Of a DNA stretch of 64,000 bases, positions 40,875 to 58,944 are shown piece by piece. Below the pieces are notes generated by a model, which did not search any database, was not told the DNA's origin, and was given only the letters and a program-made list of their open reading frames with translations. Position 1 is the first letter of the stretch, and every line of letters begins with the position of its first letter. The translations under genes were made by a program, and so were the position numbers. Where the stretch lies: contig MIBJ01000008.1 in assembly GCA_001829495.1 (NCBI GenBank), positions 1 to 64,000 on the forward strand, given 5' to 3'. This DNA is from Spirochaetes bacterium RBG_16_49_21. Lineage in GTDB: Bacteria > Spirochaetota > UBA4802 > UBA5550.

Positions 40875-41360
40875 ATGGATAATATAATCCAGGATATAAT
40901 TAAACCCAACTGGGATGAAATCCATAGGGCACGGGATGAGTGCTGTAATTTTTTGATTAATCATAAACTATCCGGGGATGTTATAGATGCTATAACCATG
41001 GTTATGCATGAGCTTCTGGAAAATGCGATCAAATATGGAAATTATGAAAGCAGCGATTCATTAATATCCTATACATTGAAAATAGGGAAAAAAAACATTA
41101 CCATAGAAGTAACCAACCCGATTTTTGGAGACGAGAGCCGGCATTTTAAAACGCTCGATAAAACCATCCAATGGATCAGAGGTTACCAGAATCCATTCGA
41201 GGCGTATATTGAAAAGCTCAAGCAGGTCTCAGTTATGCCGCTTGACGATAAAGAAAGCGGCCTGGGTTTGGTTCGGGTGGCATATGAAGGCCAAAGCATT
41301 CTTGATTTTTACGTCAGGGATGATAATCGTATCAGCGTATCGGCAGAATATCAATTATGA
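40875..41360 (+). CDS. RsbW-like ATP-binding protein, cassette 1
   Basis: A 161-residue GHKL-fold protein related to RsbW/SpoIIAB anti-sigma kinases. The N-box is clear: VMHELLENAIKYG with Glu46, Asn50, Lys53 and Gly55. A glycine-rich GLGLVRVAYEG follows at about 137-147. The canonical D-x-G-x-G box between them is replaced by TNPIFGDESRHF and an inserted helix LDKTIQWIRGYQNPFEAYIE, so ATP binding or kinase activity may be altered. Family members bind a sigma factor or partner, and phosphorylate a STAS protein. First gene of a four-gene operon with a STAS-like protein, a methyltransferase and a phosphatase. Copy 2 is at 55150. Confidence 0.82.
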   Translation: MDNIIQDIIKPNWDEIHRARDECCNFLINHKLSGDVIDAITMVMHELLENAIKYGNYESSDSLISYTLKIGKKNITIEVTNPIFGDESRHFKTLDKTIQWIRGYQNPFEAYIEKLKQVSVMPLDDKESGLGLVRVAYEGQSILDFYVRDDNRISVSAEYQL

Positions 41361-41396
41361 TAAATCGGGATTCGCATCAGTGTGCTGGAGTAAGGT

Positions 41397-41768
41397 ATGC
41401 CAAACAAGAAAAAATTTAACAAAAACGTTCTGGAGATCGAGGTCAATGAGGACGAGATTTCCATTAGTGTAAAGTTTAAGGGTAAAAGCGTAGACCGTGA
41501 TCCTTCAGACTTTATCACGCCGATTCTCTCCGACTGTCTGAATACCTGTACTAAAAATGATAAAGAACTGATATTAGATTTTCAGGAGCTTGAATTTATG
41601 AGTTCATCGACAATTACACCGGTCTCACGGATCCTCGAAATAGGGAAGTTACGTTCTGCTCGAATTAAAATAATTTACCAAAAATCAAAAAAATGGCAGT
41701 ACCTCAATTTTTCCGCCCTCCGAATTTTTGAAACAAATGACCGGCGAATAGAGATTATAGGTAATTAG
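41397..41768 (+). CDS. STAS-like antagonist protein, cassette 1
   Basis: A 123-residue protein with the strand-helix pattern of anti-anti-sigma STAS proteins. The predicted loop where a STAS protein is phosphorylated reads ELEFMSSSTITPV (Ser69-Ser71, Thr72), matching the position of the usual DSSG. An N-terminal strand ends KGKSVDRDPSDFI, also kept in copy 2. From memory it resembles the uncharacterised slr1659-type regulators of cyanobacteria. It would be phosphorylated by the RsbW-like protein and dephosphorylated by the SpoIIE-type phosphatase of the same operon; the target could be the methyltransferase. Gap to the previous gene is 36 bases. Confidence 0.72.
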   Translation: MPNKKKFNKNVLEIEVNEDEISISVKFKGKSVDRDPSDFITPILSDCLNTCTKNDKELILDFQELEFMSSSTITPVSRILEIGKLRSARIKIIYQKSKKWQYLNFSALRIFETNDRRIEIIGN

Positions 41769-41770
41769 TA

Positions 41771-43168
41771 ATGGAACTACAGAAGGTTATATTCGATGGA
41801 TTTCTGGTCTCAAGTACCGTCTCAATTCCAGTCCAGGTGGCTTATGGATCAAAATTCTCCGTTTTTGTCAAATTCAAAGAAGATCACCAACCCATACAGG
41901 GCGCTGAATACAGCAAGCTTATATTGGCGATTGCCGGTAAGGAATTTGAATTCAGCACATGCCGTCTTATGTTGGAACCCAACTCAGAGGGATACACCGG
42001 CAGGCTTCTTTTCTTAACTGATTTATTTGACTTCTATGCCCTCTTTTTCGAAAAAAAGATCATAAATCTTGAAACTCTTTCAAACAATCTATCGCTCATC
42101 CTGTCACAAAAGGACAAGGTTACGGATCAATTTAAAAATTATATTACAGACCTGTCCTATGATATAAAGGTGTACAAACACTTTTTTGATGATCTTGATA
42201 TGAAATTGACTCATGAACCGGAAGATGTGTGCACTACGGTATTTCAAGTGATTATCAACACCGTCGGCAGGAAGTTTATAACCTTTTATGATACTAAGCT
42301 GCACGAATTGGAACAGTTGATTTCAGGATATACGAAGGAAGATCACGAACTACACGGTTATTACTTACGGAAACAGCTGTGGGATTTTATAATGTGTTCT
42401 GAATTCATGACCCGTACAAATCTCAAGCCGCGAGGTTATGCGGGTGACTCAGACATGATGCTTATGTTATACGAAAATGATTATGGGGGGAATTCAACAT
42501 TCGCAAAGCTTTTAAATAAATATTCACTGGAGGTGCCTGCCGCTCAATCGGTGCGGAATCGGAGGGTAATGATACCGCAAATCCTCCGTCAAGTCCAAAG
42601 GGAATTTGCTATTCGAAGCAATGAGCCCCTTCGGATTATGTCGGTAGCTTGCGGACCGGCCTATGAGCTGTCGGACCTTTTTGTTACGGCCGATGATCTG
42701 GACAAATTCCAATATACTCTTCTCGATCAGGATACTGAAGCCCTTACCGAGGCTGAGGCAAACATACGCAGGATTGAAAAATTATTCAGCCGTAACATAC
42801 AGGTTGTCTATTTGCAGGATTCAGTAAGAACCATGCTCAGAACGCCGCAACTGCATGAGAAGTGGGGAAAATTCCAATTCATCTATTCCATGGGTCTTTT
42901 CGACTACCTCACCCAACCGGTTGCCAAGGCCGTTATTGAGAAAATTTACAGCCTGCTCGATCCGGGAGGGTATATGCTCATCGGTAATTATCATTTTCAG
43001 AATAAAAGCCGGTGGTTTATGGAATACTGGCTTGACTGGGTGTTGTACTATAGGAACGAGGACGATATGACCGAGCTGCTGAGCGGCCTCGATGCTGCAG
43101 CCGTATCAATTATGTTTGAAGAGTCCGGGTGCCAGATGTTCCTTACCGCTCAGAAACCATTACGGTGA
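41771..43168 (+). CDS. SAM methyltransferase of partner-switch cassette 1 (PhcB-like?)
   Basis: A 465-residue protein. The first 110 residues are a beta-rich domain (FDGFLVSSTVSIPVQVAYGS...) that could be PilZ-like. A helical middle contains CSEFMTRTNLKPRGYAGDSD and PAAQSVRNRRVMIPQ, then comes a class I methyltransferase core: motif I IMSVACGPAYEL (about 293-304), the acidic strand TLLDQDTEAL, and FIYSMGLFDYLTQPVA. From memory the central 'KPxGYAGDxxM' and 'PAAxxxRNR' blocks match the family that includes PhcB, which makes 3-hydroxypalmitate methyl ester signals. It starts two bases after the STAS gene and ends overlapping the phosphatase start (TGATG). Substrate is unproven. Confidence 0.75.
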   Translation: MELQKVIFDGFLVSSTVSIPVQVAYGSKFSVFVKFKEDHQPIQGAEYSKLILAIAGKEFEFSTCRLMLEPNSEGYTGRLLFLTDLFDFYALFFEKKIINLETLSNNLSLILSQKDKVTDQFKNYITDLSYDIKVYKHFFDDLDMKLTHEPEDVCTTVFQVIINTVGRKFITFYDTKLHELEQLISGYTKEDHELHGYYLRKQLWDFIMCSEFMTRTNLKPRGYAGDSDMMLMLYENDYGGNSTFAKLLNKYSLEVPAAQSVRNRRVMIPQILRQVQREFAIRSNEPLRIMSVACGPAYELSDLFVTADDLDKFQYTLLDQDTEALTEAEANIRRIEKLFSRNIQVVYLQDSVRTMLRTPQLHEKWGKFQFIYSMGLFDYLTQPVAKAVIEKIYSLLDPGGYMLIGNYHFQNKSRWFMEYWLDWVLYYRNEDDMTELLSGLDAAAVSIMFEESGCQMFLTAQKPLR

Positions 43169-44529
43169 TGGAACGGATGAGCGCACAAACTGTAAAAAGC
43201 GACACTGACGCGGCTATAGATACCCAAGAGTTTCGTCACTATAAGATAAAAATCATCCATCAATGGGCTCAAACGATGGCTTTGCTGGGCCTGACCTTGG
43301 TTCCGCTGTTCTTTATACTCGATTACTTTACCATTCAGGTTGAATTATTGCCGCGTTTTGCCTTATACAGGGCAATTGGATCGGGCATTGCCGGTATCCA
43401 GTATATTATCTTACGGAGCACAAAGCCGGGCAGGCTGTCTTACTTCCACGGCTATCTCTTTACCTTCATCATCGGCGGAGTGATTATTTTAATGACCGCC
43501 GATCTTGGCGGATTCAGTTCGCGGTATTATGCGGGTCTTAACCTGGTTATCATTGCTGTTACCCTTCTCTTGCCTTTGGGAACTATAAACTCCGCCGCAA
43601 ACGGTTTCATGATCGTTGTTCTCTATGTGCTTTGGAATCTGATTGCAGGAAAACCTTATGAACTGGCTGATCTGATAAACAACCTCTTTTTCATGACCGC
43701 AACCGTCGTCATAGCCGTCAGTATAAATCATGTAAGAAACGGATTGATAAAAAAGGAATATTATTCCAGATGGCAGCTCCTGGATGCTCGCGACGCCCTC
43801 TGGACTGAAATGGAATTGGCCAAGAAGATACAAACCTCGCTGCTGCCGGCTCAGCATAACATCGCTAATTACGAAATAGCTTGCATTATGTTGCCGGCTG
43901 AGGAAGTTGGGGGAGATTATTACGATATCATTGAAACCAGGGCAGGTGAACGCTGGATCGCGATCGGCGACGTGTCGGGCCACGGGTTGGAATCGGGGCT
44001 CGTTATGATGATGATGCAAATAAGCTTTTTTTCTTTGGTCAATATCCACCGGGGATACAGCCCGTCCACGGTTCTTGAATACTTGAACTATGTCATACGG
44101 AAGGACCTCCACCGCCTTGGCTCAAACCGATATATGACCATTACGGCAATCCGGCTTGATGGCTCCATCATCACATTTGCGGGAAACCACCAGGACATAC
44201 TGATTCACCGCGCCCGGACGGACATCGTTGAGAAGATTCCGGTTGAAGGAAGCTGGATAGGCCTTTCTGATAATATACAGGAGTTTTTGAAGGATACGTC
44301 GATAGCCATAGAGAAAGGCGATTTGATCCTGTTATTCACTGATGGAGTTACAGAAGCAGGTGGGAAGAACGGAGAAATGTTCGGCCAGGAGCGGCTTGAA
44401 CGGTTTCTGCAGAAATATGCGAATTTGCCCACAGAAGCGATCGTTAAAAATATTGCAAAGGATGTCGTCATGTTTCATGAAGAACAGACTGACGATATAA
44501 CACTCATGGCGCTGAGAAGATTATTTTAA
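43168..44529 (+). CDS. Membrane SpoIIE-type phosphatase, cassette 1
   Basis: A 453-residue protein with about six N-terminal membrane segments (about 22-195, including GFSSRYYAGLNLVIIAV) and a SpoIIE/PP2C phosphatase domain (about 225-453): IQTSLLPAQ, EVGGDYYDIIE, IGDVSGHGLESGLVMMMMQ, LLFTDGVTEAG and TDDITLMAL, with all metal-binding Asp residues. It would dephosphorylate the STAS-like partner on a membrane-sensed signal. The start at 43168 is taken from the TGATG overlap with the methyltransferase stop; an upstream ATG at 43129 is possible. Its last nine bases overlap the end of the convergent gene at 44521. Confidence 0.88.
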   Translation: MERMSAQTVKSDTDAAIDTQEFRHYKIKIIHQWAQTMALLGLTLVPLFFILDYFTIQVELLPRFALYRAIGSGIAGIQYIILRSTKPGRLSYFHGYLFTFIIGGVIILMTADLGGFSSRYYAGLNLVIIAVTLLLPLGTINSAANGFMIVVLYVLWNLIAGKPYELADLINNLFFMTATVVIAVSINHVRNGLIKKEYYSRWQLLDARDALWTEMELAKKIQTSLLPAQHNIANYEIACIMLPAEEVGGDYYDIIETRAGERWIAIGDVSGHGLESGLVMMMMQISFFSLVNIHRGYSPSTVLEYLNYVIRKDLHRLGSNRYMTITAIRLDGSIITFAGNHQDILIHRARTDIVEKIPVEGSWIGLSDNIQEFLKDTSIAIEKGDLILLFTDGVTEAGGKNGEMFGQERLERFLQKYANLPTEAIVKNIAKDVVMFHEEQTDDITLMALRRLF

Positions 44530-46053
44530 AAGCGGGGAAGGAACAGGCGACGCAAGGGTTTCCCTCTGAAATGGCTCTAACCCATCTTGGATCATTTTCC
44601 ATACGTAGCTCAAATGATCATTTATAATAGTCATCTTTTTCAACAGGACATTGTTTCTTTTTATTAAGGGAGCCACCGGTATTTTAAGAGAACTCGCAAT
44701 CAATGCATCATTCAACAGGTTGTAAATCTCGTCCATGATTTTAATTATTTTTTTCGCAAGATCCGTTGGAATATAATGTTGAGTTTCACCCCTTAGTAAT
44801 AATTTCTTTTGGTTACTCTTGCGTAAAGCGACATTAACTGCGGTACAGTAAAACTTAATAAAGTCCTCCGAATAGGTGAGGTTGCTGTTCAGATAATTGA
44901 TAAGGTCATGAGGGAGATTCTGATGATAGAGCTCCCTGAGCATCCATGAATACATGAAAATAAGAGTATTGGTCATATAATTGGCGATGGTTTTCAAGGA
45001 TAAGGTGAACGAGCCGGGCACATGAAATAAATATTGTTCGACTTTTTTTCCTTCCCTGTCATGTATTGCTCGATCTTCGGCGGGAAAAGATAATTCTTCG
45101 CACGTTTCCATCTTACTCAAATCATTCAATAATGCCTTTAATCGCGTTATCAATTTCAATCGTCCCGACAGGACCGATTTTTCGTTTTTATCTCCCCGGC
45201 TCTGCGCTTCTAAAACTCTATCTTCGGCACATTGAATTTCCTCCATTTGTTGCAGCTGGTCGTCTATATCAAGGAGGATTCTGTTAATAATCTTGTCCAC
45301 TAAATTTTTATCATTCCCCGCATTTGACGTCCGGATCTCTTCAAACTCGATATCGCGGAAGGTGTTAAGAATAAACTCCTTAAGACTGATATCGGAACAC
45401 TCATGCGCGTTAATCTTATGATTAAACCATATAAAACTGGTTATGCAACTTGTTAAATATTCGATGTTGAAAGCATTGCTCGAAAAATACCCTCTCAATC
45501 TGATATTGTTCACACACGTTGTAGCTTTTTCGAAAAACAGGATATGATTCACATCATTCAGGAATTTCCGGAGGGACGGTATTAAATTATGGTGGAGTTG
45601 TATTTCGAAATTTCTCAGTTTTTCATGAAGTTCAACAATATATAAATTTTTTCTTCTGTTGACATCCCTGCCGCCATATCTAAGGCCGTGCACTTCATTT
45701 TTTACTTGGATCTCTGCAATTGTATCATTCAATAATTTCAATTTATCAGAGACGTCGAATTTGTCGATGAAATTGTTAACGAAGAAGATCAATATGTCTT
45801 CATAGGCTTTTAAGTCGCCGCTTTTCCCATATTCAAAAAGCCCAATAGCTCCCTGATACCGGTTCAAATCGTCCTGGACGCTTTTGATCTGTTCGCGGAT
45901 CAAATAGTCATTTTTTTGAGAACCCGTTTCGTAGGTGAGATTATTGAATGCATGAATTTTTTGTGCGAGGACGCGTTTTTGATCATGGGCGTCATTAATG
46001 ATCAATGGAAGAGATTTGATTTCGTGATGATGTTTATATTTATATTCCATCAT
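44521..46053 (-). CDS. Hypothetical protein, 510 aa, helical
   Basis: I do not recognise a family. The start at 46053 has aaggaag nine bases upstream; the frame is open to 46074. The protein is about 510 residues, soluble, almost wholly helical by composition, with charged coiled-coil-like stretches (e.g. IEFEEIRTSNAGNDKNLVDK-type region, LLDIDDQLQQMEEIQCAEDR) and a late block with TFTLSLKT-like and Trp-rich helices (MYSWMLRELYHQN). No signal peptide or membrane segment is seen. It is convergent with, and overlaps by nine bases, the phosphatase of cassette 1. A structural or scaffold role is possible but unsupported. Confidence 0.6.
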   Translation of the reverse strand: MMEYKYKHHHEIKSLPLIINDAHDQKRVLAQKIHAFNNLTYETGSQKNDYLIREQIKSVQDDLNRYQGAIGLFEYGKSGDLKAYEDILIFFVNNFIDKFDVSDKLKLLNDTIAEIQVKNEVHGLRYGGRDVNRRKNLYIVELHEKLRNFEIQLHHNLIPSLRKFLNDVNHILFFEKATTCVNNIRLRGYFSSNAFNIEYLTSCITSFIWFNHKINAHECSDISLKEFILNTFRDIEFEEIRTSNAGNDKNLVDKIINRILLDIDDQLQQMEEIQCAEDRVLEAQSRGDKNEKSVLSGRLKLITRLKALLNDLSKMETCEELSFPAEDRAIHDREGKKVEQYLFHVPGSFTLSLKTIANYMTNTLIFMYSWMLRELYHQNLPHDLINYLNSNLTYSEDFIKFYCTAVNVALRKSNQKKLLLRGETQHYIPTDLAKKIIKIMDEIYNLLNDALIASSLKIPVAPLIKRNNVLLKKMTIINDHLSYVWKMIQDGLEPFQRETLASPVPSPLLK

Positions 46054-46308
46054 GCCGTTAACTTCCTTAAACAAGCACGGTGACTAAGCTAATTACAAAA
46101 CTGCAATAATATCTTGAAATTTTGTCCTGCACCCGGTCCAATAATTAGGCTATCCATTGAATGATCATATACTAAATTACAATAAAAAAGCTTTTAAAAA
46201 ACCCGGACAATGAATTTTTTTAAATATAACTATTAATCATCTGCCAGTCAAATTTTTTGGGGAGAATATACAGTTTTCGTAAATTGATTATGTATTGCAT
46301 AATATCTC

Positions 46309-48045
46309 CTATGCTAATTTGAAATACTCAATTTCGTTATTAAGCCGTTTCGCATTGCCGGCCATGCTTTCGGATGACGCGGAAAGCTCCTCGCTGGCGG
46401 CAGAAGTGTTCTGCGAGGTGTCATTGATGAGCGTGATCGATTTTACGATTTCATTGACGGCGCTTTTCTGCTCTTCCATTGATTTCATGATGTCATCAGC
46501 CCTTTTGAAAAAATGTTCCGCATCCTCCTTGAGAACGTTGTTTATGTCCATGACCTGATGTGTCAATTCACCGATCCTGTTCACCACGGTTCCAAAGGAA
46601 CGGAGCCCTTCGAATATCTTTTCAATGTTCGCGGTGGCCTCATTCAGCGCCATGAATGATTTATCCATGCTGTCATTGGTGGTCTTTACGATCTCGGAGA
46701 TGTTTTTGGTGTTTTCCCCGGCCTGCTCGGCGAGCTTGCCGATTTCATCCGCCACAACCGCGAATCCCCTGCCGTATTCTCCGGCGCGGGCCGCCTCGAT
46801 GCTCGCGTTGAGGCTTAAGAGGTTTGTCCTTTCGGAAATATCGTTTATCAGTCCCGTGTAATCCAGCATGCGCCCCGCGTCTTCTGTGGCCGTTTTCATC
46901 AATTTCATGGTGTCATTTATCTTGCCCTTGACATCTTCGATATTCACATCGATACCGCTCCTGACCCTCGTCGCTTTTTCCATTTCTATCCCTTCATCAT
47001 TCACGAGCATATACACCTTATTTATGTTTTCGATAAGGATCTGCGTCCGTTTATGCTGGTATTCTATGGTCTCGTATATTGAATCTCCCCCCGCCGATAT
47101 CTCTTCAAGGGATGATGAAATCTCCTCCACGGTCGCCGCCATTGACTGGCTCTGGCGGGAAAAATTATCGGCCGTACTCACCATCTCGCCCGCCGAGCTG
47201 GATAGACTTTGGGATGCCGACATGATTCCTGAAACGAGCTTCTTCAGCCCGTCGGCTGCCTCATTCAGTGCCGCGGCAAGCTGGCCCAGTTCGTCCTTCT
47301 GGTCAAGATTGATCCGGTCCGTGAGGTCACCGCCGGCGATTTTTTTAGCGAATTCGAGGCCCTTTTTCATAGCGCCCATGATGCTGCCGCTGATGATGAC
47401 GCTGAAGGCAACGGACACAGCAAGGCCGATAACTATGGCGATCAGCAGCGAAATATTCGCCCGCCGGGCGACCATGTCTGCTTCTTGCTTGCCTGCATGA
47501 ACCGCCTTATCGTTCATTTCAACAAGCCGGTCCAGCATGTTAATCGCCAGCCCGGAGGTCACGGCATTTAATTCCAGAGCCTGGTGCGTTGCGCGGACTA
47601 TGCGGTCATTGGTTCGATTCTGCTCCCAATCGTTTATCATTTCCATCAGTTGCTCATGATTCTTGCGCCATGAATCCCATACGTTTGTGAATTTTTTCCA
47701 GGCTTCGGATTCCTCCCTGCTATGCCGAAGGGACTCGTATCCCTGCTGCGCGGCGTCGGCCCGCGCCCAACCCTCCTTCAGCCGCTGATGCTGGTCCTTC
47801 CGCTCCTGCTCGCTCAGCCGGGGGTTTATAAGGGCCTTCTCTGCCGAATCAATGGTTGCCTGAGCATTGCTGATCGCGCTGATGCTCAGAAATCTGCGCA
47901 GCCGATTATTTTGGAAATCATCCAGAAAGGACGTGACATTACTAAGGCTAACAAGGCTCACCAGTGCGATAACGAGCATAATGACCGTTAGGATACCGAA
48001 TGATCCCAGGAGTTTAGTTCTGATGTTTATGCGATAGGCTATCAT
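46309..48045 (-). CDS. Methyl-accepting chemotaxis protein
   Basis: A 578-residue chemoreceptor. TM1 lies at about 10-32, then a four-helix-bundle periplasmic domain, TM2 at about 190-215, HAMP, and a signalling coiled coil with tip [20 protein letters not shown] and [18 protein letters not shown]. It has no C-terminal pentapeptide. The start [13 protein letters not shown] at 48045 has gggggaaatt just upstream; the longer frame to 48153 has none. It diverges from a Cache-type periplasmic protein at 48288, a plausible ligand-sensing partner. The 234-base gap after it (46075-46308) is AT-rich, with no gene seen. Confidence 0.92.
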
Positions 48046-48287
48046 AATTTCCCCCAAGCACGATATTGGCAATATCGATACATAAAATATTATACCATAA
48101 TATCTTTGATTATACAAGCCTTTTTCAATCGGCATTTTGTCAAAAATAAACATTTTTTCCAGTGATTATTATCATAGAGTTGACCGTCTTTGAAAATTTT
48201 AATATATTGAATAGGCTTGTGCAATAAAGTAATTTTTTATCAACTACTATTCATTTATTAAAAAAATTATATTTCGGGAGTTAAACA

Positions 48288-48743: not shown

Positions 48744-48762
48744 GCGCCTTTTCGTTGATCGA

Positions 48763-48822
48763 TTAAAACTTCACGCTCAATCCGGCGTTTACCAGGCCGT
48801 TGATGCCGAGGCCTCCGTATGC
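48763..48822 (-). pseudogene. C-terminal tail of an outer-membrane beta-barrel protein
   Basis: The minus strand reads AYGGLGINGLVNAGLSVKF then a stop at 48763-48765. Ending in an aromatic residue after alternating hydrophobic positions is typical of outer-membrane barrel C-termini. Upstream on that strand it is cut by the end of the STAS gene, so only about 19 codons remain. A remnant. Confidence 0.4.
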
Positions 48823-48828
48823 ACAACT

Positions 48829-49155: not shown

Positions 49156-49295
49156 TATGTATAATCCTCACAACTATAATAGATACACCTTATCGTACAA
49201 GTCATGAGGAAGAATTGGTGTCAACTTTTTTATTTACCTGATAATTTTACCATATCCTCCCCGCACATTGATGCTTATCGCGGTATTGCATATAA

Positions 49296-49838
49296 CTAAG
49301 GGTATATGACATTCTCAACAGTTATCTCACATCGATCGGCGCCGTCTTTCATGCATTTGACCAGATTCTCTTTTACTTCCAATCCCATCGCCTGATACCA
49401 GCCTGCACGAAGGCCGAAGCATCCGCACTCGTAGTCTTTTTCCACGCCGATGCTGCGAACCTTTGTATATGCGTAACATTGATGGACAATGCCTAACCAC
49501 CTGCCCTTGCCTGTAGATTTAAATTCATAGTCGAAATAATCGTGTGTAATGAAAGCTTCCATGGCCAACGTCACAAGCATCATAAATTCTTTATCGTTTT
49601 TAGGCTTGTCCAGGCCCAGGGCTTTCATCAGACGATGCATTTCAACTTTACCCACCGCCTGGCCGACCTGGAGATTCATTTTGTTGGCCACATTCCATCC
49701 TGCGTTAAGAACCATAGACATCATCCAATGTGAATCGCAGGTCCAGCGGCTTTTTGCGATAAATTCCCTTTTTTCTTCAGTAGGAAGCTTCGCCAGCATC
49801 TCCCGTGCCGCATCCTTTAACGCCGTTCCTTCCATCAT
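49296..49838 (-). CDS. DUF6125/ATC hydrolase-like protein
   Basis: A 180-residue soluble protein that resembles the DUF6125 / L-2-amino-thiazoline-4-carboxylate hydrolase-like group: KSRWTCDSHWMMSMVLNAGW, EMHRLMKALGL, ECGCFGLRAGWYQAMGL and a late DRCEITVENV. Conserved Cys residues (CGC, KC, RC) suggest metal or cofactor binding. The biochemical role is unknown. The start at 49838 follows aaaggaggaaaaca, very strong. It diverges from an AbrB-type regulator at 50183, a possible regulator of it. Confidence 0.65.
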   Translation of the reverse strand: MMEGTALKDAAREMLAKLPTEEKREFIAKSRWTCDSHWMMSMVLNAGWNVANKMNLQVGQAVGKVEMHRLMKALGLDKPKNDKEFMMLVTLAMEAFITHDYFDYEFKSTGKGRWLGIVHQCYAYTKVRSIGVEKDYECGCFGLRAGWYQAMGLEVKENLVKCMKDGADRCEITVENVIYP

Positions 49839-49895
49839 TGTTTTCCTCCTTTGTTAATTTCTAGAGTTACCTATCAGACTTGTTGCAAAACTCAC

Positions 49896-50404: not shown

Positions 50405-50423
50405 AATTGCCGGGTGCATGATC

Positions 50424-50456
50424 GGTAAGATTCTGAACTTTCAGAGTCTTACCGGT
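50424..50456. terminator. Hairpin between convergent genes
   Basis: Arms cggtaagattctga and tcagagtcttaccg with a small loop, at the junction of the convergent AbrB and hybrid-kinase genes, whose last codons it overlaps. No T-tract is present, so it is a weak terminator at best. Confidence 0.5.
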
Positions 50457-52458
50457 CATTGATCGCATCATATGCCTTGCGGGTGAGATCGCTCATACTG
50501 AAAGGCTTCTGGATGAAATGCACGCCTTCTTTAAGCACCCCGCGATCTGCAATCACGTTGGTCGTGTATCCTGACATGAAGAGCGCCTTTACTCCCGGCC
50601 GTATTGCTTCAATCCTGTCTATTAACTCTTTGCCGCTCATCTTCGGCATCACCACATCGGTTATTACGAGATCTATGTGCGTATCCCCTCTTTCGAAGAA
50701 TGATAGAGCTTCCAGCGGGTTTCCGGTAGACAGGGTCGTGTAGCCGATTACCTCAAGCATCTCGATCGTCATTGCGCGCACCATGTCATCGTCTTCAACA
50801 ACCAGGATCGTTCCGGTACCGGAAGCCGGCAGGGCCTCCTCGGTCTCCTCCGTAACATCTCCTTCTTCCATGCTTCTGCGTATATAGATCTTGAACGTTG
50901 TTCCCCGTCCCGGTTCACTATAGACATTGATAAATCCATCGTTCTGTTTTACGATACCGTAAACCGTGGCAAGCCCGAGCCCCGTGCCCTTGCCCGTCTC
51001 TTTCGTGGTGAAAAAGGGCTCGAATACATGCGCCAGGGTATCTTTTCCCATTCCCGCTCCGTCGTCACTCACCACCAGCTGTACATAGTCTCCGGGCGAA
51101 AATCCGAGATGTACCCTGCAATAAGCCTCATCAAGACGGATATTATTGGTTTCAATGGTCAGCTTTCCCCCATTGGGCATGGCATCACGGGCATTGACCG
51201 CAAGATTGACAAGAATCTGTTCCATCTGAGATCTATCAAACTTGATCTTCCAGAGATTATTCACGGGATGAAAATAAAGTTCAAGGTCCTCGCCGATGAG
51301 GCGGATGAGCGTCTTTTGTGTGCCCGCAATCAGGCCATTCAAATTCAGGGACTTCGGCGCAATGATCTCTTTTCTTGAAAAAGCCAGAAGCTTATGGGTG
51401 ATATCCTTGGAATGCAAGGCCGCCCTCTCAATCTCCAGCACGTTCTTAAAAAACGGATCGTCTGAAGAAAGATTATTTTTGATCAGATCAACATATCCAA
51501 GAATGACGCTGAGCATATTGTTATAATCATGCGCCACGCCTCCTGCCAGGCGGCCGACTGATTCCATTTTCTGGGCCTGGAGCAGCTGCTGCTCAAGCTT
51601 TGATTTTTCCGCCTCCGCCCTTTTGCGTTCGGTGATGTCCCGTGCCAATACCCGAAAGCCTTTCGGCTGTCCCGAAGAGTCGCGTATGAGCACGGCATTA
51701 TTGAGATGGTTCCGGACGGATCCGTCCTTGCGAATCACTTCAAAATCCATCAGTAACGCAGGCTCGCCGGTTTCAAATACTTGGTGGAAAACCTCGTACA
51801 GGTGCCGGGCAGTCTCTGCCGAGGCGATCCTTCGATAGTTCATCCCTATGAATTCATCATATTCATATCCGAACTGCCTGCAGGCGGCATTGTTGACAAA
51901 AGTGTAGTTACCCCTGAGGTCAAGCTCATAAAAGCCCTCTTCCATGGTTTCTAATATGGTTCGGTACTTCTCCTCGCTCTCCAATAAAGCTGTCTCAGCC
52001 TGCTTGCGCTCGGTGATATCCTCCTCTTTGCGGATAACGCCAACCTGCCGGCCGCGGATGTCGAGAAGCGGCTTCCACAAAGCTGAACACCATTTGGCCG
52101 CTTTTCGTTTCGTTATAAACCGGAACCGGCCGCGGTATTCCCTGCCGCTGAATACGCGATCCCATGCATAGAGCATTATTTCACTATCGTCGGGATGAAA
52201 ATAATTAATGAAATGCTTTTTCCGGAGGCTTGCTATCGAATAGCCGGTCAATGCTTTAAAGGAGGGTGTAACGTAACGAAGATGCCGGTCCATATCATAC
52301 AGAAAAATAACATCGCTGGAATTATCCGTCAGGGTTTCAAGAATAGCCGCGCAGTCCCATACCGATAAAGGAGTTGCATAGTGCGATGATTCCCTAACCG
52401 GTTTTCCGGAACTCCGGTAGGCTTTTTGTACTTTTTTAGTACTATCCTTTTTTGTCAT
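50449..52458 (-). CDS. PAS-PAS-histidine kinase-receiver hybrid
   Basis: A 669-residue cytoplasmic hybrid kinase. PAS domains at about 30-155 and 160-280, a His-kinase dimerisation domain with H-box GRLAGGVAHDYNNMLSVI (His about 311), ATPase domain (N-box LVNLAVNARDAMP, DDGAGMGKD, FEPFFTTKETGKGTGLGLAT) and a C-terminal receiver (VVEDDDMVRAM, LVITDVVMPKMSG, LFMSGYTT, FIQKPFS). This is the NtrB-like HisKA class. No output protein is adjacent. The start has aaggaagcatgac upstream. Confidence 0.92.
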   Translation of the reverse strand: MTKKDSTKKVQKAYRSSGKPVRESSHYATPLSVWDCAAILETLTDNSSDVIFLYDMDRHLRYVTPSFKALTGYSIASLRKKHFINYFHPDDSEIMLYAWDRVFSGREYRGRFRFITKRKAAKWCSALWKPLLDIRGRQVGVIRKEEDITERKQAETALLESEEKYRTILETMEEGFYELDLRGNYTFVNNAACRQFGYEYDEFIGMNYRRIASAETARHLYEVFHQVFETGEPALLMDFEVIRKDGSVRNHLNNAVLIRDSSGQPKGFRVLARDITERKRAEAEKSKLEQQLLQAQKMESVGRLAGGVAHDYNNMLSVILGYVDLIKNNLSSDDPFFKNVLEIERAALHSKDITHKLLAFSRKEIIAPKSLNLNGLIAGTQKTLIRLIGEDLELYFHPVNNLWKIKFDRSQMEQILVNLAVNARDAMPNGGKLTIETNNIRLDEAYCRVHLGFSPGDYVQLVVSDDGAGMGKDTLAHVFEPFFTTKETGKGTGLGLATVYGIVKQNDGFINVYSEPGRGTTFKIYIRRSMEEGDVTEETEEALPASGTGTILVVEDDDMVRAMTIEMLEVIGYTTLSTGNPLEALSFFERGDTHIDLVITDVVMPKMSGKELIDRIEAIRPGVKALFMSGYTTNVIADRGVLKEGVHFIQKPFSMSDLTRKAYDAINDR

Positions 52459-52488
52459 GTCATGCTTCCTTAATGGGGCATGTTATGT

Positions 52489-52653
52489 TCTCGCAAAGGC
52501 GACCTCACCCCCCCGGCCCCCTCTCCCATTAAGAAATGAAAAAAGGAGAGGGGGAGTCTAGGATGAAGCTTAATGCTTCGGAAACCCTCTCCTTTCTTCC
52601 AAGTTTAATGGGAGAGGGTGCGCGGAGCGCGGGTGAGGTCGTCTTTGCGAGAG
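52489..52653. mobile_element. MITE-like element, copy 2
   Basis: The ends tctcgcaaaggcgacctcac and gtgaggtcgtctttgcgaga are inverted repeats. Inside is a longer palindrome of ccctctcccatt... / ...aatgggagaggg, then gcggagcgcgggtgaggtc as in copy 1 (24912-25066). It lies in the gap upstream of the hybrid kinase. The copy looks less eroded than copy 1. No gene inside. Confidence 0.7.
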
Positions 52654-52824
52654 CATCTTTTTAGACAGTCACGGCAAAAACTCAATTATTGTGCTGTCGT
52701 GCAACGAGTCTAATATAAAATATACACTTCTGTCTCGAAAATTTCATGTGAAAAATCAGATTATAATCTGTAAAGATAGGAAATATTATCGTCTGATGCA
52801 ATAAGGAGAGCATGTGGCAGTTCA

Positions 52825-52869
52825 TAGAGAGAACTCCCGGCCTTGGGGTCGGGAGTTCTCTCTATTTTA
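52825..52869. terminator. Hairpin between MITE region and acyl-CoA dehydrogenase
   Basis: Stem agagagaactcccg...cgggagttctctct with loop gccttgggg-type. A short T-run follows on the plus side. It sits 30 bases past the stop of the minus-strand dehydrogenase gene, so it may end that transcript, although the T-run faces the other way. Confidence 0.55.
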
Positions 52870-52896
52870 GTGGCATTATATATTTTATATTGCCGT

Positions 52897-54771
52897 CTAT
52901 CCTTCGAGCGCCCCCGTGAAATTTTCCCGTACAGCCTCGATCCCCGCAGCCTCATTGTTCATGATGCATTCAATTTTTCCGAAATACTTGGGAAACTCAG
53001 AAGCGATGTAGAACTGAGACGACAGCACCCTGCCGCTGTAATACGCTGCCTCGTTGCTTTCCGAAATGATCTTCTGCCGCTCCTCGGCCTGGGCATTGCC
53101 GACTATCGCCTTCATCCGGGGAATGCTAATCGTGAGACTCCAGAGGTGCAGCCATGCAAGCACGAGCTGGAACATCGACTGCTGGAGCGGAGTCGCATTC
53201 AATACGAGCGCGACGAATTTCCCCTCCTGCATCTGGATATTCATCATAGTGATGACCTCATCGAGCTTCTGTACGCCCCTCTCCACCAGGGCGATATATT
53301 TCTCCTCAACGACTCCCCGTGCCTTTTTGACGGTTTCGGCTATCCGCTTTTTGAGCATCGTGTAATTATACCGTTCCGGATCCAAGAGAATCTTACGCAT
53401 CTGGAGATCGAGCGACTGAATGCCGTTCGTGCCTTCATAGATGGAGAAGACCTTGCTGTCGCGGGCGTACTGCTCAACCGGATAATCCTGGCAGTAGCCG
53501 TACCCGCCGTATACCTGCATGGCCTCCGCAGTAACCAGCCAGGCGGCGTCGGAGATGCCTGCCTTTACGATGGGTGTGAGTATTTCAATGATTGCCGATG
53601 CCTCTTTCACCTCATCGGAGGATGACGAAGACAAGGTAATATCCGTATTGTATGAAAGATAATAGGTCAGCATCCGCATACCCTCTACGGTGCCCTTCAT
53701 GTACAGCAACATGCGCCTCACATCGGGATGCTCCACAATTTGAACGCTCGGGGCTTGGGGATTGAGCTGCTGGGTTATATGCACGCCCTGGATCCGGTTC
53801 TTTGCGTACGCAACGGCGTGCATATAGGCTGCGCTGGAGACCGACTGGGCCTGTATGCCGGTAAATATGCGGGCTTCGTTCATGAGCTGGAACATAACCT
53901 TCATCCCCTTGCGCTCCTCGCCCAGGAGATACCCCACGCATTTTCCGTTGTCGCCGAAATTAAGGGTGGATGTCGCGTTCCCCTTAAGACCCATTTTGTG
54001 CTCGATTCCGGAACAGAGGACGTCGTTCCTCTTTCCCAGCGAGCCGTCCTTGTTCACCAGAATCTTGGGCACGACGAATATCGATATCCCCTTTGTCCCG
54101 GCAGGATCGCCCTCGATTCTCGCGAGCACCGGATGTATGATGTTGGGCGTTAAATCGTGCTCGCCGTTGCTGATGAATATTTTCTGACCGGAAATGAGAT
54201 ATGTGCCGTCGCTCTGCCGCACCGCTTTTGCCTTGAGAGCGCCGACATTCGAGCCTGCATCCGGTTCCGTGAGGCACATGGTGCCGTTCCATTCTCCGGC
54301 GATCATTTTATGGAGAAAGAGCTTCTTTACTTCCTCCGAGCCGTAAATCATCAAGAGGTGCGCCGTTCCGGTTATGGACGAGCAATACATTCCCAGCGAG
54401 GTGTTGCCTGCATTAAAATACTCTTGAGACGCAAATGAGATTGTGGCAGGCATATCCATTCCGCCTTCTTCCTGATGGAACGGGAGGGTATGGAAGCCTG
54501 CTTCAACAAATGCCTTGAATCCCTTATGAAATGATTCCGGCACCGTTACCTCTTTGGTGTCCGGATTGTACTTCAATCCTATCTTGTCTCCGTCCGCATT
54601 AGACGGGTAGAAATGATCTACCGCAATTTTTTCCGCGAGATTCAGGGTTTCCTCGAAGATATCCCTGTCCAGCCCGGCAAAGCGCTCATATCTGTTTATC
54701 TTATCAAGCTCCAGCATCTCAAAAATGACAAACCTGACATCCCGTGAGTCCACTAAAGGATTTAATGCCAT
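52897..54771 (-). CDS. Acyl-CoA dehydrogenase
   Basis: A 624-residue acyl-CoA dehydrogenase of the longer class with a C-terminal extension (Acyl-CoA_dh_C type). Features include the FAD/substrate region MCLTEPDAGSNVGALKAKAV (about 163-182), ISGQKIFISNGEHDL, KMGLKGNATSTLNFGD, and a late AMQVYGGYGYCQDYPVEQYA and SIYEGTNGIQSLDL with the catalytic Glu. It oxidises acyl-CoA in beta-oxidation. The start at 54771 follows ggaggcttttt. No other beta-oxidation gene is adjacent, although a thioesterase and FadL-like porin occur elsewhere in the window. Confidence 0.93.
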   Translation of the reverse strand: MALNPLVDSRDVRFVIFEMLELDKINRYERFAGLDRDIFEETLNLAEKIAVDHFYPSNADGDKIGLKYNPDTKEVTVPESFHKGFKAFVEAGFHTLPFHQEEGGMDMPATISFASQEYFNAGNTSLGMYCSSITGTAHLLMIYGSEEVKKLFLHKMIAGEWNGTMCLTEPDAGSNVGALKAKAVRQSDGTYLISGQKIFISNGEHDLTPNIIHPVLARIEGDPAGTKGISIFVVPKILVNKDGSLGKRNDVLCSGIEHKMGLKGNATSTLNFGDNGKCVGYLLGEERKGMKVMFQLMNEARIFTGIQAQSVSSAAYMHAVAYAKNRIQGVHITQQLNPQAPSVQIVEHPDVRRMLLYMKGTVEGMRMLTYYLSYNTDITLSSSSSDEVKEASAIIEILTPIVKAGISDAAWLVTAEAMQVYGGYGYCQDYPVEQYARDSKVFSIYEGTNGIQSLDLQMRKILLDPERYNYTMLKKRIAETVKKARGVVEEKYIALVERGVQKLDEVITMMNIQMQEGKFVALVLNATPLQQSMFQLVLAWLHLWSLTISIPRMKAIVGNAQAEERQKIISESNEAAYYSGRVLSSQFYIASEFPKYFGKIECIMNNEAAGIEAVRENFTGALEG

Positions 54772-54882
54772 AAAAAGCCTCCGGTAAATATTAAATTAAT
54801 CTGGCCGCCTATTTGTCAATTTCTAATTTAAATTTTCCATCCTTGCCGCGGGTGTGAATTAAATTTCGGGAAATTCCACACT

Positions 54883-54964
54883 TCCCCCCTGTCCCCCGTA
54901 GGGGGCACGAGTACAATGAATGTAATTCATGTAAAAACGCCCCCTCAAGGGGATGGGGGTCTTA
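54883..54964. repeat. C-tract/G-tract repeat
   Basis: Contains ttcccccctgtcccccgtag and gccccctcaaggggatgggg followed by tcttaaaaa, closely similar to the stretch near 26083-26106 (ccccctcagggggttggggggtcttaaaaa-type). It is the only structure in the gap 54772-55149 upstream of cassette 2; I see no gene there. Confidence 0.5.
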
Positions 54965-55149
54965 AAAAATGTGAGTGCCTCATTTTTAGCCGAAAAATAA
55001 TTCACACCAGACTAAACGGTTGCATAAATTTTTTGAAATTATTGACATTTCTTCAATTAAAAAATAAACTCGTTTCAAAGCCTGTAATAATAAATGATTC
55101 ATAATTTTCCACGGCGTAGGGAAAATTACGTAATGAATTGAGGAAACAT

Positions 55150-55635
55150 ATGGACAAGACATTGAAAATAAGCATGAAACCTGAATGGGATGAAATAGAA
55201 CAAATGAGAAACAAATACGGCGATTTTATGAGGTCCCATACATTACCAAATGATATAATACATGCAGTCATCATGGTGGTGAGTGAACTTATCGAAAACG
55301 CGATCAAATACGGAATATTCAAGAGAGAAAATGATTTTGTTGATATATCATTAACAATCGAAAAAAAAATCATTATTATTGAAGTCAAGAATCCGATTGA
55401 TGATTCAGCCATCCCGTACCTGCGGCATCTCGATTCCACGATACAATGGATCAGAGGTTACCAGGATCCTTTTGAAACCTACATTATAAAACTCAGGCAG
55501 GTTTCGACCAAGCCGCAATATGACTCGGAGAGCGGGCTGGGGCTGGTACGAATATCCTATGAGGGCAAATCAATACTTGATTTTTACGTTACTGAAGATA
55601 ATCACATTAATGTATCGGCAATATATAAATACTAG
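55150..55635 (+). CDS. RsbW-like ATP-binding protein, cassette 2
   Basis: A 161-residue GHKL-fold protein, the same length as its cassette 1 counterpart and collinear with it. The N-box is VVSELIENAIKYG with Glu46, Asn50, Lys53, Gly55 at identical positions. The segment STIQWIRGYQDPFETYIIKL again takes the place of the usual D-x-G-x-G box, and GLGLVRISYEG follows. The start at 55150 has TGAGGA six bases upstream; a TTG at 55138 would add four residues not found in copy 1. First gene of the second four-gene cassette. Kinase activity on the STAS partner is inferred. Confidence 0.82.
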   Translation: MDKTLKISMKPEWDEIEQMRNKYGDFMRSHTLPNDIIHAVIMVVSELIENAIKYGIFKRENDFVDISLTIEKKIIIIEVKNPIDDSAIPYLRHLDSTIQWIRGYQDPFETYIIKLRQVSTKPQYDSESGLGLVRISYEGKSILDFYVTEDNHINVSAIYKY

Positions 55636-55656
55636 ACTTGTTTCATAGCTATTCAT

Positions 55657-55711
55657 AATTATTCATTGTTGCCCCTGCCGCCGAAGGCGGCGGGGGCAAC
55701 AATGAATAATT
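55657..55711. repeat. GC hairpin with ccgccgaaggcgg core
   Basis: A near-perfect palindrome: aattattcattgttgcccc, GC core, then the mirror image to 55711. It sits between the first and second gene of cassette 2; cassette 1 lacks it. It may slow or process the transcript. The core matches the hairpin at 30804-30842. Confidence 0.65.
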
Positions 55712-55760
55712 ATTGAGTTTTGCGATAAGTCTACTGAGCTTTTACAAAGGAGAATTTTGA

Positions 55761-56132
55761 ATGGAGAACACCGTAACGCACAAATCGAATTTGTTGACAC
55801 TTCAAGTTGAAGAAAATGAAACTGCAATCATAATTAAATGGATCGGAAAAAGCGCCGATCGCACGCCCGGCATATTTATCAATCCGATCCTGAATGATGC
55901 TTTCGAAAAAACCTCAAACAATAACAAAGAATTAATTATGAATTTTACGGATCTTGAATTTTTGAATTCTTCCACGGTTGCGCCGATAGTTAAGATCCTC
56001 GACAGGGCGAAGAGAGGCAGCAATAGATTGACGATCGAATATTCCAGGTCTTTAAACTGGCAGGAGCTTTCATTTTCCGCTCTCATCGTATTTCAAACTA
56101 AGGATAAAAGAATTCAAATTAAGGGGATTTAA
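55761..56132 (+). CDS. STAS-like antagonist protein, cassette 2
   Basis: A 123-residue STAS-like protein, the same length as copy 1. The candidate phosphorylation loop is DLEFLNSSTVAPI (Ser70, Ser71, Thr72), in register with copy 1; the early GKSADRTPGIFINPIL also aligns. A strong ribosome site aaaggag lies upstream. A 125-base gap with a large hairpin separates it from the RsbW-like gene, unlike cassette 1 (36 bases). Five bases separate it from the methyltransferase. Confidence 0.72.
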   Translation: MENTVTHKSNLLTLQVEENETAIIIKWIGKSADRTPGIFINPILNDAFEKTSNNNKELIMNFTDLEFLNSSTVAPIVKILDRAKRGSNRLTIEYSRSLNWQELSFSALIVFQTKDKRIQIKGI

Positions 56133-56137
56133 CGAAC

Positions 56138-57529
56138 ATGGATCTTTACGAAGAAAACCTTGAAGGATACGTGGTATTCAACAACGGGCCAATTCCGGTG
56201 CGACTGAAGTTTGCGTCGAAGTATTCCCTTTTTATCAATTTTCCGGAGGACTACGACTTCCCGAACCAGACCGAATTCAGCTCTTTGACATTAAAAATCG
56301 ATGGTGAGAATTTCATATATGATAAATGCAATTTAATTCTTGAAGCCAACATCGATGGCTATGCGGGACGCCTGGTTTTTATCAACAATGTCTATAATTT
56401 TGAAATTCTGCTGCAAAAAAAAGTTCATGTGAATTTAGAAACCTATTTTTATAATTTGCCTCTCACCCTCAATCATAAAAATAACATCAGGCAAACATTC
56501 AAGGATTTTACCAGCAATCTATCCTTTGATTTAAGCATATACCGGCAATATTTCGACAACATGGATCAGGAATATAAAGATGAAAAGCAATCAATCAAAG
56601 ACTCGATTCAAAAAGTGCTCCTCAATTCAGAGGGAAGAAAATTCATGAGTTTCCTCGACACAAAACTTGATGAATTGGCCGATGAAATTAAAGAGTTTTC
56701 AGGCAAGGAGCATGAAAAACACGGGTTTTATTTTAGAAAACTCTTGTGGAATTATATACTCTGTTCGGAATTCATGACTCGTACGAACCTGAAGCCGAGA
56801 GGTTATGTCGGTGATTCGGAAATGATGAGAATGATCTATGAAAATGACTACTGGGGAGAAACTACTTTTGCAAAACTGATGCACAAGCATCCAATAGAGC
56901 ATCCGGCTGCCCAGGCTGTTCGAAATAGAAGACTGCTGATACCCAAGGTGCTGCACGAAACAATGAATAATTTTCCTCATTTGCCCAACAGGGGCTTCAG
57001 GATTTTATCGGTCGCCAGCGGCCCTGCAACCGAGCTGCAGGATCTTCTGGCAACAGCCGATGATTTTAATAAATTCAGCTTCACCCTGTTTGATCAGGAT
57101 ACATCTGCCCTGATGGAAGCGGCCAGGGGCATTGAGCAGATTGAAAAAATGAAGAACTCGAAGGCGAAAGTGACTTATTTAAAGGATTCGGTAAGGACAA
57201 TGCTCAAAACATCTAAAATTTCAGAAAAATGGGGGCAATTCCACTATATATACTCGATGGGACTTTTCGATTATCTGACTCCTCCCGTAGCTGCGGTATT
57301 ATTGCAAAAGCTCTATGAATTACTGATTCCCGGGGGCCAGCTTTTCGTCGGTAACTATAGCGTCAACAACCCAAGCCGGTATTATATGGAATACTGGTGC
57401 GATTGGGTTCTTTACTATCGTACGGAAGAAGAATTTTTAAATCTGCTCAATGACAACACCGCGAAAAAATCGGTATATATCGAGGATTCAGGCAGCCAGA
57501 TGTTTCTTCAAATCAAGAAGGAAGGATAA
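56138..57529 (+). CDS. SAM methyltransferase of partner-switch cassette 2 (PhcB-like?)
   Basis: A 463-residue paralogue of the protein at 41771. The same architecture is seen: a beta-rich N-terminal domain (about 1-110, EENLEGYVVFNNGPIPVRLK...), a helical middle with CSEFMTRTNLKPRGYVGDSE and PAAQAVRNRRLLIPK, then the SAM core ILSVASGPATELQDLL, TLFDQDTSAL and YIYSMGLFDYLTPPVA. Motif I has Ser where copy 1 has Cys. Conservation is strongest in the middle and core and weak in the N-terminal domain, as if that domain had diverged to sense or bind different things. Substrate is unknown. Confidence 0.75.
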   Translation: MDLYEENLEGYVVFNNGPIPVRLKFASKYSLFINFPEDYDFPNQTEFSSLTLKIDGENFIYDKCNLILEANIDGYAGRLVFINNVYNFEILLQKKVHVNLETYFYNLPLTLNHKNNIRQTFKDFTSNLSFDLSIYRQYFDNMDQEYKDEKQSIKDSIQKVLLNSEGRKFMSFLDTKLDELADEIKEFSGKEHEKHGFYFRKLLWNYILCSEFMTRTNLKPRGYVGDSEMMRMIYENDYWGETTFAKLMHKHPIEHPAAQAVRNRRLLIPKVLHETMNNFPHLPNRGFRILSVASGPATELQDLLATADDFNKFSFTLFDQDTSALMEAARGIEQIEKMKNSKAKVTYLKDSVRTMLKTSKISEKWGQFHYIYSMGLFDYLTPPVAAVLLQKLYELLIPGGQLFVGNYSVNNPSRYYMEYWCDWVLYYRTEEEFLNLLNDNTAKKSVYIEDSGSQMFLQIKKEG

Positions 57530-57564
57530 CTTTTACTCGAAGCCTATTCATATTAATCAATACC

Positions 57565-58944
57565 ATGAAAGCAGAAAAGAAAGCTGACATCACTGATCTT
57601 CCGACATACGATAATCTCGATTTTGAGTCGTACTTAAACTTAATTCTGCATCAATGGCTGAAAACACTGGTCACTTTCGGCATTACCCTGGTTCCCTTAT
57701 TTTATTTTCTGGATTACATTGTAGCTCCCCGTGAACTGCACTACCAATTTGCCTTGTACCGGGCGGCCTCCACGGCACTCTCCATAATTCAATATTTAAT
57801 CATTCGTAATACAAGACCGGGAAAATTTTCCTATATACATGGATACGTAATCACCTTATACGTGGGCGGCATGATTTCCGCCATGACCATTCACCTCGGG
57901 GGATTTTCATCCGGTTATTACGCGGGTCTTATGCTGGTCATGGTGGCCGTAAACTTACTGTTGCCGTGGAAACCTATTAATTCACTCATAAATAGCACAA
58001 TTATGATTGCAACATACACCATGCTCAATATCGTCTTCGGGAAGGATGTTAATTATGCTCAGGCTATAAGCCCGTTATACTTTTTGTTCAGTATGGCTAT
58101 CATCTCCATCAGCATAAATTATGTTAAAAATAAACTGGAAAGCAAGGAGTTCTACCTGCGGGCTGAATTGAAAAAAACGCGGGACGCCCTTTGGGGAGAG
58201 ATGGAGATTGCCAAGCGGATACAGACGGCGCTTTTGCCGAAAAAGGAGCAGATGACCTGTTTTGACACCGGCAAGCTCGGCTGTTTCGAGATTGCCGCGA
58301 CCATGATTCCCGCGGACGAAGTTGGCGGCGATTATTATGACGTCATTGAAACAACCAGGGGGGAAAGATGGATCGCGGTCGGCGATGTTACCGGCCATGG
58401 CGTAGAATCCGGGCTCATCATGCTGATGATGCAAACCAGTATTTTTACCATCGTCAATAATACCGCCGGATATAACCCTTCCGTTGTGCTCAGCGCGATA
58501 AATCACGTCATCAAAGAAAATATCGCCCGGCTCGGAACCGACCGCTACGTGCCTATATCATTGATACGCCTGAATGACTCAAATATGATTGTAGCGGGTA
58601 AACATCAGGATATCTTAATATATCGATCAAAATTAGAAAGGGTTGAGGTAATCAAAACTGAGGGTACCTGGATAGGAATTTATGAAAAAATCAAAAAATA
58701 CATGGTCGATAAAACAATTCCCATCGAAGTAGGCGATATAATATTTTTATTTACCGACGGTATTACCGAAGCGATCGATAAAAACGGCCTCATGTTCGGC
58801 CAGGAACGGCTTATACACGCCTTTGAAAAATATTCCGAGCTGCCGGTTAAAGAAATACTGAACAGCATCATGCAAGAGGTAACGGGCTTCTGGGATAAAC
58901 AGCATGATGATGTGACATTGCTGATTATAAGGAGGGAATGGTGA
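57565..58944 (+). CDS. Membrane SpoIIE-type phosphatase, cassette 2
   Basis: A 459-residue paralogue of the protein at 43168. Six membrane segments (about 25-195, with GFSSGYYAGLMLVMVAVNLL) precede a SpoIIE/PP2C domain: IQTALLPKK, EVGGDYYDVIE, VGDVTGHGVESGLIMLMMQ, FLFTDGITEAI, HDDVTLLII. Metal-binding Asp residues are intact. A 35-base gap separates it from the methyltransferase, where cassette 1 has an overlap. Its 3' end overlaps the end of the convergent kinase-GGDEF gene by 20 bases. Likely dephosphorylates the STAS-like partner. Confidence 0.88.
   Translation: MKAEKKADITDLPTYDNLDFESYLNLILHQWLKTLVTFGITLVPLFYFLDYIVAPRELHYQFALYRAASTALSIIQYLIIRNTRPGKFSYIHGYVITLYVGGMISAMTIHLGGFSSGYYAGLMLVMVAVNLLLPWKPINSLINSTIMIATYTMLNIVFGKDVNYAQAISPLYFLFSMAIISISINYVKNKLESKEFYLRAELKKTRDALWGEMEIAKRIQTALLPKKEQMTCFDTGKLGCFEIAATMIPADEVGGDYYDVIETTRGERWIAVGDVTGHGVESGLIMLMMQTSIFTIVNNTAGYNPSVVLSAINHVIKENIARLGTDRYVPISLIRLNDSNMIVAGKHQDILIYRSKLERVEVIKTEGTWIGIYEKIKKYMVDKTIPIEVGDIIFLFTDGITEAIDKNGLMFGQERLIHAFEKYSELPVKEILNSIMQEVTGFWDKQHDDVTLLIIRREW

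Follow-up and report, generated by a model that had tools for sequence, protein, structure and literature searches.

Several described systems are similar to the genes reported here. In Phc quorum sensing of Ralstonia, PhcB produces a diffusible autoinducer, i.e., the methyl ester of 3-hydroxypalmitic or 3-hydroxymyristic acid (3-OH PAME/MAME), which is sensed by PhcS, and homologues of phcBSRQ have been reported in Paraburkholderia. In the SiaABCD system of Pseudomonas aeruginosa, Thr68 of SiaC is the residue that is phosphorylated by SiaB (PMC8457831). CqsS is an autoinducer receptor with six transmembrane helices (6TM), and its outputs were shown to be interchangeable, as it regulates an adenylate cyclase when transplanted (PMC4821796). 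Here, two copies of a four-gene cassette are described that lie in a stretch of 64,000 nt of Spirochaetes bacterium RBG_16_49_21 (the whole stretch is called the window). They encode a kinase-like protein (KIN), a STAS protein (STAS), a methyltransferase (MT) that uses S-adenosylmethionine (SAM), and a membrane phosphatase (PP). Each cassette probably represents a synthase/receptor pair of the Phc type that has acquired a SiaABC-type Ser/Thr partner switch in place of the histidine kinase output, together forming an autoinducer circuit.

The cassettes share with Phc a homologous C-terminal SAM methyltransferase domain and a 6TM sensor in the adjacent membrane protein, as seen via Paraburkholderia graminis. 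They differ from Phc in that the sensor carries a SpoIIE phosphatase where PhcS has its histidine kinase, and in that a GHKL kinase and a STAS protein take the place of PhcR and PhcQ; a two-component output of histidine kinase and response regulators was not found in the cassettes. In addition, the N-terminal MT domain is not recognisably alike in sequence. With SiaABCD they share a membrane phosphatase of the SpoIIE type in an operon without a sigma factor, and probably also a DUF6272-like kinase and a SiaC-like phospho-target; the predicted phosphosite of the STAS protein, Ser70, lines up with SiaC Thr68 in an alignment by motif. However, they carry the MT where SiaABCD has the GGDEF diguanylate cyclase SiaD, their 6TM sensor is of another type, and the SiaB and SiaC profile matches stay below the curated cut-offs. 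The partner-switch logic is also that of RsbU/RsbV/RsbW and SpoIIE/SpoIIAA/SpoIIAB, and the kinase is weakly SpoIIAB-like in sequence, but no sigma factor was seen near the cassettes and their kinase does not have the usual Asp of the G1 box. A six-helix sensor without large loops is shared with the 6TM receptors CqsS and LqsS and with 6TM adenylyl cyclases; in contrast to CqsS and LqsS, the cassette synthase is a methyltransferase and not of the CqsA/LqsA type, and the output is a phosphatase.

Two cassettes with the same gene order

The cassettes span positions 40875-44529 and 55150-58944 of the window and consist of the following genes:

40875..41360, + strand: cassette 1 kinase-like protein (GHKL/HATPase, slr1658/SiaB-like, 161 aa)
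41397..41768, + strand: cassette 1 STAS/SiaC-like phospho-switch protein (123 aa, likely phosphosite Ser70)
41771..43168, + strand: cassette 1 PhcB-like SAM methyltransferase (465 aa, proposed signal synthase)
43168..44529, + strand: cassette 1 membrane phosphatase (453 aa, 6TM sensor at about 1-205 and SpoIIE PP2C domain)
55150..55635, + strand: cassette 2 kinase-like protein (161 aa)
55761..56132, + strand: cassette 2 STAS/SiaC-like protein (123 aa, likely phosphosite Ser70)
56138..57529, + strand: cassette 2 PhcB-like SAM methyltransferase (463 aa)
57565..58944, + strand: cassette 2 membrane phosphatase (459 aa, 6TM sensor and SpoIIE domain)

An earlier reading of the DNA, made from the sequence only, had listed these positions, the pairwise lengths (161/161, 123/123, 465/463 and 453/459 aa) and the shared order KIN-STAS-MT-PP, and all of these were borne out. 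The two cassettes are 53% (KIN), 46% (STAS), 49% (MT) and 50% (PP) identical in pairwise comparisons over the full length, with hardly any gaps. The catalytic motifs are intact in both copies, i.e., GGDYYD, GDV[ST]GHG, FTDG and DD[IV]TL in the phosphatases and KPRGYxGDS, VAxGPAxEL, DQD and GLFDYL in the MTs. The cassettes contain no sigma factor, again in agreement with the sequence-only reading, and no cognate sigma factor gene of the RsbV/W-sigma or SpoIIA type was found among the neighbouring genes of the window that were examined.

Domains were assigned with Pfam and NCBIfam, and the matches of kinase, STAS protein and MT were mostly below the curated cut-offs. The kinase was assigned to the HATPase_c_2/slr1658 superfamily, the STAS protein to the SiaC-STAS/slr1659 superfamily, the MT to the class I methyltransferases, and the phosphatase to SpoIIE (117-121 bits). 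The HATPase_c_2 match of the cassette 1 kinase was 29 bits, while both kinases reached 50-51 bits for the slr1658 superfamily (cut-off 100) and 21-26 bits for DUF6272, the SiaB family (cut-off 26.6); the STAS protein reached 19 bits for the SiaC profile (cut-off 24.5). A profile search with the kinase reached SpoIIAB alone, weakly, and a PDB sequence search with single kinase and STAS sequences gave no direct matches. The N-box residues E46/N50 and the SGxG motif of the kinase are invariant. Ser70-Ser71 of the STAS protein are invariant in the curated alignment A9, and two other copies deviate from this. Some further cassettes (L049-L052) contain one or two additional STAS genes upstream of the kinase gene. 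SpoIIE domains are not confined to the cassettes: the genome has 21 in total, one of them in a 1717-aa protein encoded at window positions 15576-20729 on the - strand.

Structure models were obtained with AlphaFold2 (AF2) for cassette 2. The MT model (pLDDT 90) has an N-terminal beta-barrel (strands at 7-81), a helical region and a Rossmann methyltransferase domain; its closest folds are mainly small-molecule methyltransferases, and a weak similarity to CheR was also seen in the MT. Residues 1-200 of the phosphatase (pLDDT 91) form six helices with short loops. The top PDB match of this 6TM model was the membrane diguanylate cyclase ImcA (TM score 0.76); of the plausible structures, those that came next were adenylyl cyclases, with their membrane domains. 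The Foldseek E-values were weak, as is usual for helical bundles.

The sequence-only reading had proposed to search genomes for the four-gene order and to check the genes for co-evolution, and both gave a positive result. Apart from the two cassettes, the complete order KIN-STAS-MT-PP was recovered at about 15 non-redundant loci, which belong to Spirochaetota, Desulfobacterota and Myxococcota, far beyond chance. Three spirochaete loci, all from a single genus and one truncated at the end of its contig, have the order KIN-STAS-PP-MT. Between the four genes, pairwise distances are correlated (r = 0.69-0.82), and 0 of 2000 permutations reached these values. In all four genes, the nearest relative of cassette 1 is that of G122, a genome of the same genus (67-70%), and the nearest relative of cassette 2 is that of G071, which belongs to another family (53-67%). 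Because the nearest relatives differ consistently over all four genes, each cassette was, judged by sequence, passed on as a whole, and the two are either old paralogues or were acquired separately; a recent tandem duplication was rejected for the same reason. The MT is carried by 6 of the 46 genomes of the class, and of these six, the window's genome alone has two.

The methyltransferase and the membrane sensor

The sequence-only reading had taken the MT as the output of the switch. A target of the switch should follow the STAS and kinase genes, but the MT (METHYLTRANSFERASE) was found to follow the 6TM sensor instead. The sensor profile A5, which represents the N-terminal membrane domain of the phosphatase (17 sequences), was searched in 393 Spirochaetota genomes. 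The sensor was present in all 17 genomes with a full-length MT, compared with 8 of the 376 others (Fisher test 4e-24, phylogeny ignored). Two spirochaete MTs occur without kinase and STAS genes, and both lie beside a membrane domain of the cassette type: in G141 the MT adjoins a TM-HAMP-chemoreceptor (methyl-accepting chemotaxis protein, MCP; 210 bits with the sensor profile), and on contig G110:C125 a TM-Hpt-HATPase kinase (234 bits). Outside the spirochaetes, the MT homologues of P. graminis and Pseudanabaena adjoin histidine kinases with the same membrane domain. An exception is contig G110:C3, where kinase, STAS and MT genes are together and the matching phosphatase gene is on another contig. 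In all, MT and sensor remain linked with at least four types of output. Pairs of kinase and STAS genes are often found without MT; a third pair of the window's genome (G000:C70:16209-16628, locus L120) has no MT or phosphatase gene nearby. As the MT stays with the sensor, as kinase-STAS pairs occur without it, and as it has a homologue in a phcBSRQ-like operon (see below), the MT is a better candidate for the origin of the input than for the output. What was retained of the sequence-only reading is the partner switch, which is sigma-free and SiaABC-like and has the MT gene at a conserved place; the role given to the MT was not supported.

Related MTs were found in other surroundings. In ten of ten cases, the gene of a short PhcB-like MT (361-384 aa) directly precedes an open reading frame (ORF) of about 715 aa, for the product of which 5-9 TM segments were predicted, and the two that were scanned encode 7TM-GAF-HATPase kinases. 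Short MTs with such a membrane protein at L062, L063 and L065-L071 resemble a second synthase/receptor pair. In G062, the gene of a 470-aa MT is followed by, and overlaps with, that of a membrane class III nucleotide cyclase (L061:6550-9233). MTs fused to a cyclic-nucleotide-binding domain are without such a pairing with membrane receptors. Orphan proteins of chemoreceptor size with a 6TM domain of the cassette type are encoded at L105:5883-7451, L107:5831-7414, L109:6864-8432, L110:6205-7797 and L111:6334-7926, and MCP domains were confirmed for those of L105, L110 and L111.

The link to Phc was analyzed with a plasmid operon of P. graminis that encodes an MT, a histidine kinase and two response regulators, i.e., the layout of phcBSRQ. 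R22 of its MT, H233 of its histidine kinase and R157 of its last response regulator stand against R22 of PhcB, H230 of PhcS and R154 of PhcQ in Ralstonia, with constant offsets of the numbers for the latter two proteins. The third gene is shorter than Ralstonia phcR, the product of which has an extra kinase domain. The cassette MT profile matched the P. graminis MT with 177 bits (hhalign 99.9%), over the C-terminal 280 residues only. The cassette sensor profile matched the histidine kinase with 32-40 bits over the 6TM region, compared with a maximum of 5.8 bits for decoys of reversed sequences and of 16 bits for other multi-TM ORFs. In trees of the 6TM domain, the distant histidine kinase domains were on very long branches, and their exact position is therefore not claimed. 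Among plasmid records, P. graminis was the sole phcBSRQ-like case; another match to a PhcB-like MT was seen on Enterobacter ludwigii plasmids (NZ_CP134637.1, 46797-47450), where the annotated gene is that of a type I polyketide synthase.

Proposed circuit and alternative explanations

The cassettes are most likely self-contained circuits of cell-to-cell signalling, for which the following signal chemistry, ligand binding, phosphorylation site, sign of regulation and output are proposed. The PhcB-like MT would synthesize a signal that is small, methylated and lipophilic, in analogy to Phc the methyl ester of a hydroxy fatty acid. This compound would accumulate and bind within the membrane to the 6TM domain of the SpoIIE phosphatase. 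The SiaB/slr1658-like kinase would keep the STAS protein phosphorylated on Ser70, and ligand binding would alter, probably activate, the phosphatase, leading to dephosphorylation of Ser70. The dephosphorylated STAS protein would then change its partner and pass the signal to an output encoded elsewhere. An exchange of outputs behind such a sensor is physically plausible, because the transplanted CqsS can regulate an adenylate cyclase. The circuit is supported by the homology of MT and sensor to proteins of the P. graminis operon, by their linkage when the output changes, by the similar pairing in the wider MT family, by the additional 6TM receptors near the cassettes (see below), by the membrane-sensor folds matched by the 6TM model and the mainly small-molecule folds matched by the MT, and by the intact phosphatase motifs, kinase N-box and STAS phosphosite.

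Several points weigh against the autoinducer circuit. Ligand and product are assigned by analogy with Phc, and the output is presumed to lie elsewhere. The comparison with Ralstonia PhcB and PhcS was run through the P. graminis operon as a stand-in, and when the cassette MT was compared with that of P. graminis, no sequence similarity was detected in the N-terminal domain. The MT belongs to a broad family, and its substrate does not follow from homology. The 6TM domain is part of a widespread superfamily that includes adenylyl cyclases and MASE-like domains. Orphan chemoreceptors with the cassette-type sensor exist in genomes without a full-length MT, and the ligand may, thus, not come from this MT alone. 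Lastly, the kinase carries Asn at the position of the usual GHKL G1-box Asp, and its ATPase activity is therefore putative.

The alternative that survives best is the control of an effector as in SiaABCD, i.e., the unphosphorylated STAS protein would bind the MT and switch its activity, as the sequence-only reading had suggested. As a precedent, SiaC activates SiaD from the same operon by direct binding, which is blocked by phosphorylation of Thr68 (PMC8457831). The STAS and MT genes are adjacent in both cassettes, with gaps of 2-5 nt, and MT, STAS and kinase co-evolve. This alternative is nevertheless unlikely, as MTs are found with the sensor but without STAS and kinase, kinase-STAS pairs are found without MT, and the N-terminal MT domain is not specially lost or degraded at loci without the STAS protein; moreover, the phosphatase gene sits between the STAS and MT genes in three loci. 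The STAS protein may act back on the MT, and thereby on signal synthesis, much as SiaC acts on SiaD, which would reconcile both views.

A purely local role, in which the 6TM domain would respond to some general cue from membrane or lipids and the MT would modify nearby membrane lipids, with no signalling between cells, is improbable. The same sensor superfamily is indeed found on cyclases (adenylyl and diguanylate) that may have other ligands, and the orphan MCPs occur without MT, but the tight pairing of synthase and receptor and the precedent of Phc speak against it. About equally improbable is that the MT methylates the neighbouring membrane receptor in a CheR-like adaptation that tunes its sensitivity, which would account for its travelling with receptors and for the weak CheR similarity, because the partners have no common cytoplasmic domain (SpoIIE, HisKA, Hpt-HATPase, MCP, cyclase), short MTs pair with an unrelated 7TM sensor, the nearest folds are mostly small-molecule methyltransferases, and the characterised PhcB of Ralstonia produces a diffusible ester.

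In literature searches, no paper describing this cassette arrangement was found. Taken singly, the two halves of the autoinducer circuit are of kinds described before; what is new, as far as could be searched, is that they are combined, and that outputs are exchanged as modules behind a single pair of synthase and receptor. A slight preference is given to a wider view, in which PhcB-like synthase and 6TM receptor form a mobile pair with interchangeable outputs (partner switch, chemoreceptor, CheA-like kinase, nucleotide cyclase, histidine kinase), the cassettes are the first quorum-sensing circuits that are read by a SpoIIE/STAS switch, across spirochaetes and Desulfobacterota, and the orphan chemoreceptors follow the same signal. 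If this is true, quorum sensing by signals of the fatty-acid-methyl-ester type, known from Ralstonia and its relatives, would reach spirochaetes and lineages of sulfate reducers, and an autoinducer input would feed a Ser/Thr partner switch and, in relatives, chemotaxis. Synthase, receptor and relay would be named as four small, expressible proteins, and the widespread kinase-STAS pairs of the slr1658/slr1659 type would gain a testable upstream signal.

Linked type-B receptors and neighbouring genes

A second, related class of 6TM domains, type B, is found near many cassettes, with SpoIIE, PAS-histidine kinase, chemoreceptor or Hpt-kinase outputs. In the window, it is represented by a module beside cassette 1:

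37297..39378, - strand: second receptor, 6TM (type-B, YYAGL)-Hpt-HATPase kinase, the only type-B sensor found in the window's genome
39394..39879, - strand: CheX-like phosphatase of the same linked module; an ORF of matching size has the same arrangement beside the G122 cassette
39886..40284, - strand: single-domain response regulator (CheY-like) of the same linked module; an ORF of matching size lies beside the G122 cassette

The gene of the type-B Hpt-HATPase kinase is 1.5 kb away from cassette 1, and the genes of the CheX- and CheY-like proteins adjoin it. In G122, the homologous Hpt-kinase gene and the ORFs of matching size are on the other side of the cassette. In genomes with cassettes, 8 of 13 strong type-B matches were within about 6 kb of a cassette, a count that is somewhat biased, as the profile was partly built from such loci.

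For two further proteins of the window, of 517 aa (44521-46074, - strand) and 180 aa (49296-49838, - strand), there was no Pfam match. Convergent with cassette 2, a 1609-aa protein with Ser/Thr kinase, AAA, TPR, GAF and GGDEF domains is encoded at 58925-63754 on the - strand, and GGDEF-EAL genes adjoin the cassettes at L004, L006 and L053. These neighbours may represent a cyclic di-GMP output.

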